Assembly: GCA_963169045.1 (NCBI GenBank)
Contig: CAUJDF010000070.1
Location: forward strand, 186,001 to 250,000
Source of the DNA: Myxococcota bacterium
GTDB lineage: Bacteria; Myxococcota_A; Bradymonadia; UBA7976; UBA1532
Length of the DNA: 64,000 nucleotides
Direction: 5' to 3'
This document shows positions 53,950 through 61,119 of the stretch, in pieces. The notes beneath the pieces are model-generated. The model did no database searches, had not been told where the DNA came from, and saw only the letters and a list, made by a program, of their open reading frames with translations. The translations under genes were made by a program, and so were the position numbers. Every line of letters begins with the position of its first letter. Positions within the stretch are counted from its first letter, which is position 1.

Positions 53950-54590
53950 TCAGTCGAAGCAGACGGCCATGGCATCGCAGCCGACGTTGCGCGACGCGCA
54001 CCGGAAGCTGTGTTCGTCGTCGGGGAGCGCGGCACAGTCGAAGTGGCACAGATCGAAGTCGCCGAGGGAGCTGTCGGGCGCGGCGCGGCGGTTCACGTTG
54101 CGGCGGGCGGCGGCGCACACGTCGTCGGACAGGACCGGGCCTTCGAGGCACAGAGTCGTGACGGCGCCCTCGCTCACCTGCGCGACGAGGTCCGCGACGC
54201 TGGGATCGTCAACGCGTCCCAGTCCTGCAGCAGGGCGCGTCCGGAGCGGTTGTTGGCGCTCTCGCCGCAGAACACCCCCACCGGAGGACGCCGTCGACGC
54301 CGCCAGCCCGGCGCCGCGCTTCTTCGGCGCCGCTCGCGAGCTCGCCCTCGGGACCCGTGAGCGCGACGCGGTCGAACTCGACGCGCAACACCTCGGTCTT
54401 CAACAACAACTGGAGCCTGCCGCCGGCGGTGGCGGCGTCGAGGCGCGCGCGTCTCGGGAGCGACGGGGTTGAAGCTGTCGCCGCGGTACGAAAGGCGGGC
54501 GGTCGTGAGGGCGCCGCCCCCGCCACCGCCGTCGTCGCAGGCGGGCAGGAGCGCGGCGAGCGCGAGGCGCCAGGGGAACCGGAGCGACAT
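53950..54590 (-). pseudogene. Disrupted Cys-rich lipoprotein
   Basis: From ATG 54590 a lipobox-type signal (LRFPWRLALAALLPAC) is followed by SYRGDSFNPVAPETRA. The protein-like reading then moves to other frames: RARLDAATAGGRLQLLLKTE and VEFDRVALTGPEGELASG, next VFCGESANNRSGRALLQDWD, and finally VDDPSVADLVAQVSEGAVTT then LCLEGPVLSDDVCAAARRNV, ending CFD at 53950. At least three frame changes are needed. The last part holds six or more Cys. It starts 63 nt after the beta-propeller gene stop, so it may be the third gene of the TPP-riboswitch operon. Decay or assembly indels are both possible. Confidence 0.65.
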
Positions 54591-54653
54591 GGGGACCTCC
54601 GCGAGCGCCCGCATCCCTCGCGCCAGGTCGTCCGCGACGCGCGTCCGGGCTCA

Positions 54654-55937
54654 CTAAAGGGGCAGCACCAGCGAGACGGAGCTCTCGGCCTCGTTGGCCG
54701 TGACGACCACGCCGTCGGCGGCGCTGATGCCTTCCATGCCGATGGTGCTCTCGGTGTTGGCCGTGCCCTCGTCGGCGGCGCCGACCTTCACGACGCCGGC
54801 GATGCGCACGTCGGCGACGTCGTCGAAGCGCCACACGCCGACGGCGCCGGCGTGCTTCAGGCTCGCGGCCACGTAGGCGTGGCCCTGCCAGCGGAAGGCG
54901 GCGAGGGAGTCGGGCCGGAAGGGCGCGAAGCTGCCCGGCTCGACGTTGCGCGGCAGGTCGCCGGGCATGTCGGCGGGGTCGATGAGCACCTGCGCCTCGT
55001 GGGTGCCGTCGAGGGCCAGGACGTGCAGCGTGTCGTTGTACTCGCCGGCGACGACGAAGTGCTCGGCGCCGGCGGCGTCGACCACGCGGTGCACGCCGTC
55101 GGGCCACGGCTCGGCGCCGTCGGGGCGATCGGGCAGGCGCACGACCGTCACGTCGTCGCTCGTGCGCTCGACGACGCCGGTCGCGCCGTCGAGCAGCGCG
55201 CTGCGCCGGAACAGCAGAACCTCGTGGGTGTCCTGCAGCGTCGCCGCGACGTGGTCGCCGTCGCTCGCGAACACGATCTGCTCCGGCTCGCGCTTCGCCC
55301 CCTCCCCGCCCGTCATCGTGATGCGCGCGCGCACGGTCGCCGCCGCCGGATCGCCGCCCGGCAGCTCCAGCAGCGTCACCTGCGCCTTCAGGTCCGGCAG
55401 CGGGCACTTCCCTTCGTTGAAGTCGACCTCGTCGGCGCTGACCACCCAGCGGTCGTCGTCGCTCACGTCGACCGCGTCGGGCATCGGACCGACCTCGACC
55501 TCGCGCAGGACGGTGCCGAACAGCTCGCCGTCGGACACGTCGAGGAACACGAGCGATCCGCGGCAGTCGACGAGCGTGCCGCCCTCGCTGACCGGCTTCG
55601 TGCGCGTGACCACCGCGAAGCGGCCCTGGCGGTCGAAGTCGATGTGCGTCAACTCGCTCTCGCTGGCGTCCTCGGGGAACAGGTTGCGGCTGCGCCGTTC
55701 GACGAGCGCGCCGCCCTCGATCGCCAGCAGCGTGACCTTGCGGGCCTTCGACCCGACGAGGACCGCGCGCCCGCCGCCCGGCAGGAGCTTCACGATCTCG
55801 CTGTTGTCGGCGGCGCCGAAGCGCAGCGTGTCCGCGTGGCGGCCGCGCCAGCCCGTGTCCGTCGGCGCGTCGCCGTCCGCCGCCTGCCCGTCGCACGCGC
55901 ACAGCGCGAGCGCCATCAACCAACCACGCGTCTTCAT
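54654..55937 (-). CDS. Beta-propeller-like lipoprotein, TPP-riboswitch operon
   Basis: 427 residues; ATG at 55937, 11 nt after the stop of the outer-membrane gene, so co-transcribed. A short signal peptide has lipobox LCAC with Asp next (ACDGQ). The rest is built of repeating four-stranded blocks: KLLPGGGRAVLVGSKARKVT, LTHIDFDRQGRFAVVTRTKP, VDVSDDDRWVVSADEVD, QIVFASDGDHVAATLQD, GAEHFVVAGEYNDTLHVLAL and the final VAADGVVVTANEAESSV-like ISAADGVVVTANEAESSVSL, in the style of choice-of-anchor-I-like beta-propellers. Its position under a TPP riboswitch suggests a role in thiamine binding, uptake or sensing at the outer membrane. No catalytic residue seen. Confidence 0.85.
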   Translation of the reverse strand: MKTRGWLMALALCACDGQAADGDAPTDTGWRGRHADTLRFGAADNSEIVKLLPGGGRAVLVGSKARKVTLLAIEGGALVERRSRNLFPEDASESELTHIDFDRQGRFAVVTRTKPVSEGGTLVDCRGSLVFLDVSDGELFGTVLREVEVGPMPDAVDVSDDDRWVVSADEVDFNEGKCPLPDLKAQVTLLELPGGDPAAATVRARITMTGGEGAKREPEQIVFASDGDHVAATLQDTHEVLLFRRSALLDGATGVVERTSDDVTVVRLPDRPDGAEPWPDGVHRVVDAAGAEHFVVAGEYNDTLHVLALDGTHEAQVLIDPADMPGDLPRNVEPGSFAPFRPDSLAAFRWQGHAYVAASLKHAGAVGVWRFDDVADVRIAGVVKVGAADEGTANTESTIGMEGISAADGVVVTANEAESSVSLVLPL

Positions 55938-55948
55938 TACACTTTCCC

Positions 55949-57208
55949 TCACCACCGCAGTTCGAGCGCCGCCGTCGTCTCGTCGTTGTCCACGTCGGCC
56001 TGCGCCTGCCCGGCGGCGGGCGCGCCGTTCGCCTCGCGGACGAGGCTGTGCTCCACGTGCAGCCGCAGCAGCTCGCCATAGAGCTGCGTCGTCAGCGCCA
56101 GCGTCAGGACGTCCCAGTCCCAGGTGAGCGCCTGGCTCGGGTCGACGGCGCGCAGCGCGCGGCCCTCGGCGAGCCGCCGGTCGGCGCCGACGAGGCGGTA
56201 GTACTCGGCGCGCGCCCGCGGCTCGACCGTGCGCAGGAACGCGCGCGGGTGCTCCGAGCGGCGCCACACGTACCCGACCTGGGCGTAGCCGGCGCGGCGG
56301 CGCAGCAGGCTCTCGGCGGACTCGATCGCCTCGACCCGGAGCTCGGCCCCCCCGAGGCGCGCGTCGAGGCGGCCGCCGGCCCACCAGAACGTGTCGTCCT
56401 GGCGGCGCGGATCAGCGGCGTCGAAGCCGGGGAGCAGCGCGTAGTTCGCCATGCGCGTGCGCAGCTCGTCGTAGCCGCGCTCGGCGGAGAGCGTGCCGCG
56501 GTAGCCGAAGGCCTCGAGCCGCACCCCGGCCCACTCGAGCGCCGCACGCGCGCCGTAGACCGGCGCGTTGCCGGAGAAGCTCTCGGCGTCGCCGCTGCCC
56601 ACGACCGCCAGCGTCCCGCGCTCGCTCGCGTCGTTGACGAGCGCGGTGACGAGCGGGCGCATCAGGCCGAGCGAGACGCCGAGCGTCCAGCCGAGGCGGC
56701 CGCGCGCGCCGGCCTCCGCCGTGAGGTGGACCTCGCGTCTTCCCCAATAGATCCGAGATGTTAGAGGTTCACGGAACGTGAGGTCGTCGATCGCGACGAA
56801 CGGCACGTTGAGGCCGGCCTCGAGGTGCACGTCGAGCGGCCCGAGGTCGCGCTCGAAGTCGAACCAGGCGGCGCGGGCCCGCGCTGCGCGGTCGTCGAAT
56901 TCCAGCTCCGCGAGGAACGCGAGGCCCTCGTCGGTCACGAGCCGCGGCGCGAGCAGCACGCGCTCCAGGCGGGCCGTGCCGCTGCGCGTCCCGAGCGTGA
57001 CCGTGTCGGTGCGGCTGTCGTGGCCCTCGCCGCCGGCGCCCTCGAGGTCGCGCCACGCCAGGTCGGCGCGGCCCTTCAGGACGAGGCGGAGGCCGTCGGG
57101 GCCCTCGATCGCGAAGCGCGGCGGCTGCCGCTCGTCGGAGAAGGCGTCCCAGCCGGCCCAGGCGGGGCGGACCAGCAAGAAGGAGAAGACGAGCAGCGCA
57201 CGTCCCAC
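55949..57208 (-). CDS. Outer-membrane beta-barrel protein, TPP-riboswitch regulated
   Basis: 419 residues from GTG 57208, chosen because GGGAG lies 5 nt upstream and the signal peptide GRALLVFSFLLVRPAWA then ends just before GWDAF. The mature protein alternates polar/hydrophobic residues (RLVLKGRADLAWRDLEGAGG, ARLERVLLAPRLVTDEGLAF, GRREVHLTAEAGARGRLGWT, LRVEAIESAESLLRRRAGYA, VLTLALTTQLYGELLRLHVE) and ends in LELRW with a terminal aromatic residue, the beta-barrel targeting mark. It lacks a TonB box and plug, so it is porin-like rather than TonB-dependent. First gene after the TPP riboswitch, which predicts repression when TPP is abundant; thiamine or a precursor is the natural candidate cargo. 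Confidence 0.85.
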   Translation of the reverse strand: MGRALLVFSFLLVRPAWAGWDAFSDERQPPRFAIEGPDGLRLVLKGRADLAWRDLEGAGGEGHDSRTDTVTLGTRSGTARLERVLLAPRLVTDEGLAFLAELEFDDRAARARAAWFDFERDLGPLDVHLEAGLNVPFVAIDDLTFREPLTSRIYWGRREVHLTAEAGARGRLGWTLGVSLGLMRPLVTALVNDASERGTLAVVGSGDAESFSGNAPVYGARAALEWAGVRLEAFGYRGTLSAERGYDELRTRMANYALLPGFDAADPRRQDDTFWWAGGRLDARLGGAELRVEAIESAESLLRRRAGYAQVGYVWRRSEHPRAFLRTVEPRARAEYYRLVGADRRLAEGRALRAVDPSQALTWDWDVLTLALTTQLYGELLRLHVEHSLVREANGAPAAGQAQADVDNDETTAALELRW

Positions 57209-57270
57209 GACGACTCCCGTGGGCCATGCCGCGCGCCCGACGGCACGCGCGCGTGCGCCGGGATCGCGCT

Positions 57271-57363
57271 GCGCCCCCGTCCCTCCGTTGGCATGACCCA
57301 AATCAGGTTCGACGGGTATCTCTCAGCCCGGCGCGGTCGCGTGCCGGGCACCCCGGGGGGCGC
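57271..57363 (-). ncRNA. TPP riboswitch (THI box)
   Basis: On the minus strand the element begins at 57363 with an 8-bp P1 stem (GCGCCCCC paired to GGGGGCGC at 57278-57271). Within it are GGGGTGCC (57354-57347), a P3-like CCCGGC/GCCGGG hairpin, CTGAGA (57326-57321), ACCCG (57317-57313), AACCTGAT (57309-57302), ATGCCA (57294-57289) and ACGGAGGGA (57288-57280). These are the conserved elements of the TPP aptamer in the right order; the E. coli thiM aptamer has the same core. It precedes the outer-membrane gene by about 60 nt, where a GC-rich hairpin (about 57241-57260) and the ribosome site form the likely expression platform. Confidence 0.97.
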
Positions 57364-57408
57364 GCGGCGAGACTGCGCCCGAGGCGGGCGGCTGTCAACC
57401 GGCCGGAT

Positions 57409-57468: not shown

Positions 57469-60400
57469 GTGGTCAGGGGTGTGTCGTTGCGGTGTGTTTT
57501 CGGCCTTTTCCTCGTTGTTCTCGCGGGTTGCGAGGGCGGCGAGACGGCCGCCGGCGGGCCGGGGGACGCGCAGCCGTCGGCCGGGGACGCGGGCGGCGGC
57601 TGCGTCGCTGCGTGCGAGGGGGCGCGACGGTGCGACGCCGACGGTGTCGCGCAGGTGTGCGCCGACTACGACGGCGACGGCTGCGCCGAGTGGGGCGGCG
57701 ACGTACCGTGCCTGGACGGCACGACGTGCAGCGAGGGCGCCTGCGTGGCGGCGTGCGACCACGCCTGCGCCGAGGGCGAGGCCGTGTGCGGCGGCGGCGG
57801 CATCCGGCGCTGCGCGGTGGCGGCGGATGGCTGCCGCGCGCTGGGGGCGCCCGAGCCGTGCGGCGAGGGCCTGCGCTGCGACGACGGCGCGTGCGTCGAG
57901 GCCGACCGCCCCTGCGTCGCCACCTGCGACGCCGACGGCGCCCGGCAGTGCGGCGACGGCGGCTACCAGCGCTGCGGCCAGTTCGACGAGGACGCCTGCC
58001 TCGAGTGGTCCGTGACCATCCCCTGCGGCGCGGGCGAGACCTGCGCCGACGGCGAGTGCCTGCCCGACTGCACCGACGAGTGCGGGGGCGGCGAAGTGAG
58101 CTGCTCCGGTGACGGCTTCACGACCTGCGGCAACCACGACCGGGACATCTGCCTGGAGCCCGGCCCGGTGATCGGCTGCGGCGCCGACGAGCGCTGCGAC
58201 GACGGCCGCTGCGTGCCCGTCGCCCTGCCGTGCGAGGACGCCTGCGACGCAGAGGGCGCGAGCGTCTGCGCCGAGGGCGGCGCCGCCTGGCAGCGATGCG
58301 GACAGTACGACGCCGACGAGTGCCTCGAGCTGTCGCCTGCTGTCGCGTGCGCGGGGTTCGAGCGGTGCGAGGCGGGGGCCTGCGTCCCGGTCTGCGAGGA
58401 CGAGTGCGGCGCCGGGGCGCGGCGCTGCGGCGGCGGCGGCGCGCAGATCTGCGGCAACTTCGACCACGACCCCTGCCTCGAGTGGGCGCCGGCGGAGGCC
58501 TGCGGCGAGGGCGAGCGCTGCGACGACGGCCGCTGCGTCCGCGTCGACGTCCCCTGCGAGGACGCCTGCGCGGCGGACGCGCGCCGCTGCGGGGCCGCCG
58601 GCGTGGAGGTCTGCGGCAACTTCGACGACGACGCCTGCCGCGAGTGGAGCCCGGCGGTGGCGTGCGGCGAGGGCGAGCGCTGCGAGGGTGAGGGCGAGTG
58701 CGTCGCCGACTGCGCCGACGAGTGCGCTCCCGGCGAGGCGGCCTGCGCCGGCAACGGCGTGAGCGTGTGCGGGAACTTCGACGCCGACCCGTGTCTCGAG
58801 CCCGGCCCCCCGCAGGGATGCCCCGCGGGCCAGAGCTGCTCCGACGGGCAGTGCCGCCTCGACTGCGTCGACGAGTGCGCCGCCGACGGCGCCCGCGCCT
58901 GCGTGGCGGGCGTGAACGCCGTGCGCCTGTGCGGCGCCTACGACGCCGACGCATGCCGCGACTGGTCGAGCCCCCTGCCCTGCCGGGCCGACGAGGCGTG
59001 CGTCGACGGGCGCTGCGTGGCCGTGTGCCGCGACGAGTGCGCCGCGGGCGATCGCCGCTGCCTCGGCGACGGCTACGAGGTCTGCGGCGACTTCGACGCC
59101 GACGACTGCCTCGAGTTCGGGGGCGGGGAGGCGTGCGGCGCCGGCCAGACCTGCGAGGCCGGCGCGTGCAACACCCCGTGCCGGGACGAGTGCCCGGGCG
59201 AGGGCGCCGGCGACTGCCCGGACGCCGGCAGCAGCCGGGCCTGCGGCAACTTCGACGCCGACGCCTGCTTCGAGTGGAGCGTGGCGCGGGCCTGCGGGCT
59301 CGCCGAGGCCTGCGTCGACGGCGCCTGCGCGCCGCGGCCGCCGCCGGCGCGGCCGGTGATCGACGAGGTGCTCTTCGACGCCGAGGGCGCCGACGCCCCC
59401 GGCGTCTTCGTGGAGCTGTGGGGGCCGCCCGGCACCGCGCTCGCCGGCTTCTCGCTGGTCGGAATCAACGGCACCAACGGCGAGATCTACGCGCGCATCC
59501 CGCTGGCGGGCGCCATCCCGCCCGACGGGTCCTTCGTCGTCGCCCACCCCGACGCGGCGCCGGCCCTCGCGGGCCAGGCCGACCAGTTCCACGCCGGCGC
59601 GGACCTCCAGAACGGGCCCGACTCGGTGCAGCTCCGGTGGGGCGACCTCGTCGTCGACGCCCTCGGCTATGGCGACTTCGCGGACGCGCGCTTTGCGGGC
59701 GAGGGCACACCGGCCGGGCGGGTCCAGGCCGGCCAGTCGCTCGCGCGCGACGCGCGCCACACGGACACGGGCGACAACGCGGCGGACTTCCGCGCCGGCC
59801 CGCCGTCGCCGGGCGCCGGCACGGCCGGCTGCGAGGCGGCGTGCGCCGAGGCCGGCGCCACGCGCTGCAGCGGAGCGGTGGCCGAGCGGTGCGCCGCGGG
59901 CGCCGGCGGTTGCCTCGTCTGGACGCCGGTCGAGGACTGCGGCGCCGACGACCGCCTCTGCCAGGACGGCGCCTGCGTCGCCCCGCAGGGCTGCGCGGTG
60001 CCCGACGGCATCCAGGGACCGGTCGCGAACCTCGCCGACATGGACGCCCAGGACCAGCGCGGGACGCCGATCCCGTCGATCGACGTGCTGCCGATCGCCG
60101 GGGGCTTCGCCGTCGCGGCCGGGAGCGTGGACGTCGCCCGCTTCGCCCTGCTCGACCTCGACGCGCGAGTGCAGGCGGGCCCCGTCGGGCTGGGCACGAC
60201 GCGCTACGACCTGTGGGGCACGCGCGACGCCTACCCCCCGTCGATCGTGTTCACCGGCGAGCAGTACGTGGTGGCGTGGTCCGCCTTCAGCGACGCGGGC
60301 AACCGCGACATCGTGCTGACGCGGCTGACGCCCGAAGGCCAGACGATCGGGCGCCGGCAGATGATCGTCTCGCAGCGCAAGGGCTTCAACCCGGTCATCC

Positions 60401-61119
60401 GCGGGGATCGCGCCGGCCTGCAGGTCTTCTTCAACGCCTACGCCATGGTGGATCGCATCGACCTGAACGTCCTCGGCGAGCGGCAGGGCGACGAGGTGAC
60501 GGTGACCAGCGTCCGCGGCGACACCCGGGAGCGCGGCTACGTGAGGCTGGCGACGTCGGCGCAGGGCGGGCGCGGCCTCGCGTTCCTCCACGCCGTCGAG
60601 GCCTTCGGGACGCCGCACCTCTGGTTCCGGCCGCTCGACGCGGACGGCCGGCCGGCGGGCGACGAGCGAGCCTTCGGCGAGGTCTACCCGAGCGCCACCT
60701 GGCCGGGGCTGTTCCTCTTCGCGCACCCGCGGGATGGCTACCTGATGCTGTGGCAGGCCCGCCTCGCCGACGCCGTCCGCACGCGGGTAATCTTCTATGC
60801 GCGCCTCGCCGCCGACGGCGCGCCGCTCCAGACCGTCCGCCTCGACCAGCTCGACCCGCCCGCCGACTACCTGCCAAACATGGACGTGATGTCGGTCCAC
60901 TTCGACGGCGAGCGCATCGGCGTGGTGCACCGCCGCGAGCACGCCCGGGAGCCCGCGCACTTCGCGATCCAATGGATGGGCCTCGACGGTGCGTCGCTCG
61001 GCCGGACCGAGCTCGGCCAGGACGGCGGCGTCCTCACGCGCCACCCCGAGGACGGCGCCTGGCGCCTCTTCATCCCTGGGAATCCCATCCGGGTGGCGCG
61101 GCTCGGCTGCGCGGACTGA
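57469..61119 (+). CDS. Large Cys-repeat lipoprotein with lamin-tail and propeller-like regions
   Basis: 1,216 residues from GTG 57469 (GGGAGG 7 nt upstream). Lipobox VVLAGC. About twelve ~48-residue Cys modules occupy residues 40-620, typically CxxDECxxGExxCxGxGxxxCGNFDxDxCLEWxPxxxCGxGExCxDGxC. A lamin-tail-like domain (about 626-760) opens VIDEVLFDAEG and has FVELWGPPGT. One further Cys module (about 785-840) is followed by a beta-propeller-like C-terminal part (about 855-1216: FTGEQYVVAWSAFSDAGNRD, YVRLATSAQGGRGLAFLHAV, SVHFDGERIGVVHRREH). Probably an outer-membrane-anchored, surface-exposed scaffold or adhesin (inferred). It is divergent from the TPP operon. Confidence 0.92.
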   Translation: MVRGVSLRCVFGLFLVVLAGCEGGETAAGGPGDAQPSAGDAGGGCVAACEGARRCDADGVAQVCADYDGDGCAEWGGDVPCLDGTTCSEGACVAACDHACAEGEAVCGGGGIRRCAVAADGCRALGAPEPCGEGLRCDDGACVEADRPCVATCDADGARQCGDGGYQRCGQFDEDACLEWSVTIPCGAGETCADGECLPDCTDECGGGEVSCSGDGFTTCGNHDRDICLEPGPVIGCGADERCDDGRCVPVALPCEDACDAEGASVCAEGGAAWQRCGQYDADECLELSPAVACAGFERCEAGACVPVCEDECGAGARRCGGGGAQICGNFDHDPCLEWAPAEACGEGERCDDGRCVRVDVPCEDACAADARRCGAAGVEVCGNFDDDACREWSPAVACGEGERCEGEGECVADCADECAPGEAACAGNGVSVCGNFDADPCLEPGPPQGCPAGQSCSDGQCRLDCVDECAADGARACVAGVNAVRLCGAYDADACRDWSSPLPCRADEACVDGRCVAVCRDECAAGDRRCLGDGYEVCGDFDADDCLEFGGGEACGAGQTCEAGACNTPCRDECPGEGAGDCPDAGSSRACGNFDADACFEWSVARACGLAEACVDGACAPRPPPARPVIDEVLFDAEGADAPGVFVELWGPPGTALAGFSLVGINGTNGEIYARIPLAGAIPPDGSFVVAHPDAAPALAGQADQFHAGADLQNGPDSVQLRWGDLVVDALGYGDFADARFAGEGTPAGRVQAGQSLARDARHTDTGDNAADFRAGPPSPGAGTAGCEAACAEAGATRCSGAVAERCAAGAGGCLVWTPVEDCGADDRLCQDGACVAPQGCAVPDGIQGPVANLADMDAQDQRGTPIPSIDVLPIAGGFAVAAGSVDVARFALLDLDARVQAGPVGLGTTRYDLWGTRDAYPPSIVFTGEQYVVAWSAFSDAGNRDIVLTRLTPEGQTIGRRQMIVSQRKGFNPVIRGDRAGLQVFFNAYAMVDRIDLNVLGERQGDEVTVTSVRGDTRERGYVRLATSAQGGRGLAFLHAVEAFGTPHLWFRPLDADGRPAGDERAFGEVYPSATWPGLFLFAHPRDGYLMLWQARLADAVRTRVIFYARLAADGAPLQTVRLDQLDPPADYLPNMDVMSVHFDGERIGVVHRREHAREPAHFAIQWMGLDGASLGRTELGQDGGVLTRHPEDGAWRLFIPGNPIRVARLGCAD

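Follow-up and report, generated by a model that had tools for sequence, protein, structure and literature searches.

To our knowledge, outer-membrane uptake of vitamin B1 is known mainly in the form of TonB-dependent receptors in Bacteroidetes. Two TonB-dependent thiamine receptors, OMthi (BT2390) and Omr1, are described together with PnuT (PMC5613172, PMC2211319), OMthi being the receptor of Bacteroides thetaiotaomicron (PMC5613172). Vitamin B1 compounds are also the reported cargo of ThiV-type sodium:solute symporters (SSF), which are under TPP control (PMC2211319, PMC11452348). For vitamin B12, Bacteroides use BtuB-BtuG, a barrel combined with a lipid-anchored seven-bladed propeller lid; BtuB, a TonB-dependent transporter of 22 strands, contains a plug, and the linked riboswitch senses cobalamin (PMC6143338, PMC10404256). 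The locus described here lies on the minus strand of a 64,000-nt stretch of Myxococcota DNA, hereafter the window, and consists of a TPP riboswitch followed by the genes of an outer-membrane barrel and of a lipoprotein predicted to fold as a propeller. We consider it likely that these two proteins serve as an outer-membrane pair, repressed by TPP, with which thiamine-auxotrophic Myxococcota acquire vitamin B1. No description of such a barrel-propeller pair was found in the open-access literature.

The original prediction for this locus started from a near-consensus TPP aptamer ahead of the barrel gene. Covariance-model search with cmscan bears this out. Model RF00059 aligns over its full length (positions 1-105) to the minus strand at 57365-57262, and the aptamer (THI element, 57262 to 57365) scores 65.8 bits (E value of 1.1e-10) compared to a gathering score of 54.3. 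It is the sole Rfam match in the whole window, and a whole-genome search gave a single TPP riboswitch match in the 9.0-Mb genome. The barrel gene likely starts at the GTG at 57208, which is separated from the end of the aptamer by 53 nt. This start is favoured because it is preceded, at a distance of 5 nt, by a GGGAG motif that is probably the ribosome-binding site (57214 to 57218, minus strand), and because the protein then begins with a signal peptide; the alternative longer TTG start at 57301 falls inside the aptamer. In the predicted fold of the leader, the barrel start region is placed in a hairpin. An intrinsic terminator that could act as expression platform was looked for in the leader, and none was found. 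Together with the shortness of the leaders, these observations favour, without proving, translational control, and switching-off would probably occur by hiding the start region. The downstream pair would thus be controlled by TPP and off when TPP is replete.

The barrel gene (55949 to 57208, minus strand) is uninterrupted to its stop at 55949 and encodes a 419-aa protein with a signal peptide and a C-terminal aromatic residue, as is frequent in outer-membrane barrels. Among 13 barrel members searched against Pfam, no family scored above noise, and the TonB plug (PF07715) and receptor barrel (PF00593) were both absent at E ≤ 1. Likewise, sequence searches of the PDB gave no convincing relative of the barrel or of the propeller. 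The AlphaFold2 model built from the family alignment (pLDDT 84) contains about 16 transmembrane strands, a number counted by hand from the structure elements listed for the model. A TonB-dependent receptor is ruled out by the missing domains and by a strand number of about 16, not 22, and the earlier assignment to a non-TonB barrel can be refined to a predicted porin fold. Foldseek ranks the phosphate and polyphosphate porins OprP and OprO (2o4v, 4rjw) highest for this model, the best being OprP with an E value of 2e-11, and the 16-stranded porin fold is common to all three. However, identity to these porins is 10-13%, no Pfam porin family is matched, and the VIA-align Z values of OprO (24.9) and OmpF (24.8) are tied. 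Given this tie, a closer relation to phosphate porins cannot be claimed, and the barrel is best described as a predicted porin fold without plug. Its most conserved part is the loop 54-76 between strands 1 and 2, which is probably extracellular. Facing was derived from strand parity only; by this measure the inward invariant residues are K45, R89, R280, R304 and R333, accompanied by inward acids, and the net charge is mixed. An anion-selective arginine-ladder pore is unsupported, the pore-facing charges being mixed.

The second gene (54654 to 55937, minus strand) begins with an ATG at 55937, 11 nt past the barrel stop, exactly the gap that had been predicted. It encodes a lipoprotein of 427 aa with the lipobox LCAC, the cysteine of which (Cys15) is nearly invariant across the family. 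The AlphaFold2 model obtained from the family alignment has a pLDDT of 92 and predicts a seven-bladed β-propeller. The top fold match of this model is the seven-bladed virginiamycin B lyase (Z of 35), and many unrelated propellers score close to it (Z of 33-35). All 11 propellers scanned gave weak NCBIfam matches to the choice-of-anchor I profile (NF038117 / PF22494), with a best E value of 3e-22. The window propeller reaches 23.7 bits with NF038117, where the curated cut-off is 300, so that its relation to choice-of-anchor I proteins is remote and it stays below the family cut-off; no papers using the name choice-of-anchor I were found. Invariant acidic residues are numerous in the propeller family, and the residues after the lipobox cysteine are acidic in most members. 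Such an acidic stretch resembles the surface-export signals of Bacteroidetes lipoproteins, which may not hold in Myxococcota, and is no more than suggestive of a surface lid. The propeller would most likely sit on the outside of the cell, above the pore. Two gut genomes encode a circularly permuted propeller (L106 2197-3606 in G022 and L107 7260-8663 in G031): after a normal signal peptide and lipobox, profile positions 266-434 precede positions 26-259. The usual order is kept in other genomes of the G022/G031 genus.

Two further reading frames flank the pair in the window. The third lipoprotein gene of the original prediction (54000 to 54614, minus strand, the 3′ end at ~54000 being approximate) is indeed disrupted, as it is a remnant of a lipoprotein-like gene with frame changes. 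Its membership of the system was ruled out: the gene is broken, it lies outside the conserved unit, and no counterpart was seen behind the propeller in the gene calls of relatives. On the other side, a large Cys-rich open frame (57508-61044, plus strand; about 1180 aa) runs divergently from just upstream of the riboswitch; it contains repeated Cys modules and has no Pfam match.

The arrangement of the locus was compared in 23 Myxococcota genomes with the barrel, corresponding to the window, 13 of 57 relatives, five distant genomes of the phylum and four of a public collection. Most genomes in the comparison are incomplete MAGs, and all 17 records matched in the public collection are MAGs, named Myxococcota, Myxococcales, Deltaproteobacteria or less precisely. 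In each of the 23 genomes a TPP aptamer is found immediately upstream of the barrel gene on the same strand, with scores of 49-76 bits, a few being just below the Rfam cut-off yet full length. The propeller gene comes next after the barrel at each of the 21 loci with contig left beyond the barrel gene. Co-occurrence of homologous pairs with TPP elements, which the original prediction had proposed as a check, is therefore complete in this sample, and its recurrence in 23/23 genomes excludes chance as the cause of the arrangement. Since the barrels are only 30-77% identical to one another, the linkage has been kept through long divergence and does not result from recent copying. Among 58 near genomes, a propeller homologue is present only where the barrel is present, and it adjoins the barrel. 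The divergences of barrel and propeller are correlated (r = 0.79), as expected from shared ancestry; this correlation is no evidence of contact.

The distribution of thiamine synthesis genes indicates what the pair may be for. In a phylum-wide sample of 379 genomes, ThiC was found in 0/19 barrel genomes compared to 295/360 others (Fisher p = 6e-14). This p value is overstated, as near relatives are not independent, but the barrel genomes belong to six different families. In the class-level sample the corresponding counts are 0/14 and 21/44. Opposite states even occur within the same genus, G089 having the barrel without ThiC and G066 having ThiC without the barrel. In ThiC-bearing relatives the TPP switch is mostly located before thiC. 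In other relatives it precedes TenA-like, short-chain dehydrogenase, THI5-like or monooxygenase-like genes, these names being read from the sequence and not from a profile search. Among the latter, the ThiC-less f6 relatives (L080, L081, L084, L085, L087, L095) carry the switch before FMN-type monooxygenase-, short-chain dehydrogenase-, TenA- and THI5-like genes. As no barrel genome has ThiC and ThiC-bearing relatives mostly carry the switch before thiC, the pair stands in for thiamine synthesis. Many ThiC-less relatives (e.g. G003-G007, G013-G015) have neither the barrel nor a TPP switch, so other vitamin B1 routes exist. The original prediction had left the choice between thiamine acquisition and sensing. 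The exclusion of ThiC adds independent evidence for acquisition; for sensing, the riboswitch itself is all that can be cited.

The enzymes retained by the carriers give a hint of the cargo. Thiamine pyrophosphokinase (TPK) was found in none of the 14 class-level carriers and is also missing in five distant carriers. ThiE is present in 1/14 class-level carriers, and ThiL scores above its cut-off in 11/14. In G000 and relatives, ThiL is kept without ThiC, ThiE and TPK, an unusual salvage pattern. Without ThiE no TMP is made, yet ThiL is retained, which suggests a supply of TMP from outside, or of TPP cut to TMP. This hints at phosphorylated thiamine (TMP or TPP) as the cargo, or else at an unrecognised thiamine kinase or non-homologous pyrophosphokinase. 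The mixed charge of the barrel's pore-facing residues is a further reason to take it as no more than a hint. Genes for putative inner-membrane carriers adjoin the pair at some loci. A transporter of the TLC ATP/ADP-type (NTT-like) is encoded 7 nt behind the propeller in L134 (3285-4526, minus strand); this family carries phosphorylated compounds, which makes the protein a candidate for carrying TMP or TPP. The third gene of the L135 operon, 19 nt behind the propeller, encodes a sodium:solute symporter (SSF), which recalls ThiV, and in L101 a sodium:solute symporter is found 517 nt behind the propeller. ThiV differs from the pair itself in being an inner-membrane protein, and the reported cargo of SAR11 ThiV is HMP. 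Each of the 7/7 f4 genomes tested has an orthologue of the L135 symporter elsewhere in the genome (43-51% identity), and no TPP switch was seen at these SSF genes in the stretches read. In the window's own genome no SSF orthologue was found at E ≤ 1e-20, and no inner-membrane carrier for the pair was identified.

We infer that the pair serves uptake and that the propeller captures the vitamer. At low cytoplasmic TPP, the leader RNA would be open and both porin and propeller would be made. The vitamer would be captured by the lipid-anchored propeller, most likely outside the cell above the pore, and would reach the periplasm through the plug-less 16-stranded porin; separate carriers in the inner membrane would complete its import. 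With TPP plentiful, the aptamer would fold and the operon would be turned off, probably at translation. A dedicated pore is not strictly required, since solutes of the size of thiamine generally pass through porins. A more specific version of this scheme is tentative and rather doubtful: the propeller-capped plug-less porin may be a dedicated TonB-independent surface importer of TMP or TPP, with ThiL finishing the conversion to TPP. It would then represent a second, separately evolved vitamin system of barrel and propeller lid, outside Bacteroidota.

The same data can be read with the propeller as a surface or periplasmic enzyme, a phosphatase or lyase trimming TPP or another thiamine compound, the product of which passes through the porin. 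Its family is rich in invariant acidic residues, an enzyme heads its fold matches (virginiamycin B lyase, Z of 35), and carriers with ThiL and without TPK could use TMP made outside from TPP. However, the near equality of unrelated propellers (Z of 33-35) means that the match to an enzyme says little, and no catalytic motif was identified in the propeller; we regard this reading as improbable. Less probable still is the import of a thiamine precursor (HMP or thiazole) instead of thiamine or its phosphates. In its favour are the presence of an SSF in the L135 operon and the import of HMP by ThiV-type SSF carriers in SAR11 (PMC11452348). Against it, the use of either precursor requires ThiE, which is missing in 13/14 class-level carriers, including the window's genome and all f4 genomes with an SSF orthologue. 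Finally, a general porin and a lipoprotein merely placed under a TPP switch, for example for tuning envelope permeability to central metabolism, would suit a barrel model as near to OmpF as to specific porins but is made very improbable by the strict switch linkage in every genome, the exclusion of ThiC and the high conservation of barrel loop 54-76.

As a likely vitamin B1 acquisition pair, the barrel and the propeller give a testable role to two protein families without described function. They could explain the vitamin B1 supply of ThiC-less Myxococcota lineages, including animal-gut ones. Should TMP or TPP prove to be the cargo, the pair would salvage a phosphorylated vitamer across the outer membrane.

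With OMthi and Omr1, the locus has in common a TPP riboswitch ahead of an outer-membrane protein gene for thiamine, here a putative function. However, the barrel is plug-less and belongs to an unrelated family, and no propeller lipoprotein is mentioned for OMthi, the term lipoprotein being absent from the paper (PMC5613172). The distinctness from TonB-dependent thiamine transporters that was claimed originally thus stands, on the grounds of the plug-less porin fold and the unrelated barrel family. With BtuB-BtuG, the locus shares an outer-membrane barrel, a lipid-anchored and here predicted seven-bladed propeller, a putative function in vitamin acquisition and the link to a riboswitch. It differs in its predicted 16-stranded plug-less porin, in a switch of the TPP class and in its phylum, Myxococcota. 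The pair may therefore work like BtuB-BtuG, yet it is no member of that system, because its barrel is neither TonB-dependent nor 22-stranded. BtuB-BtuG is a natural comparison for asking whether a propeller lid can serve a porin without energy coupling.
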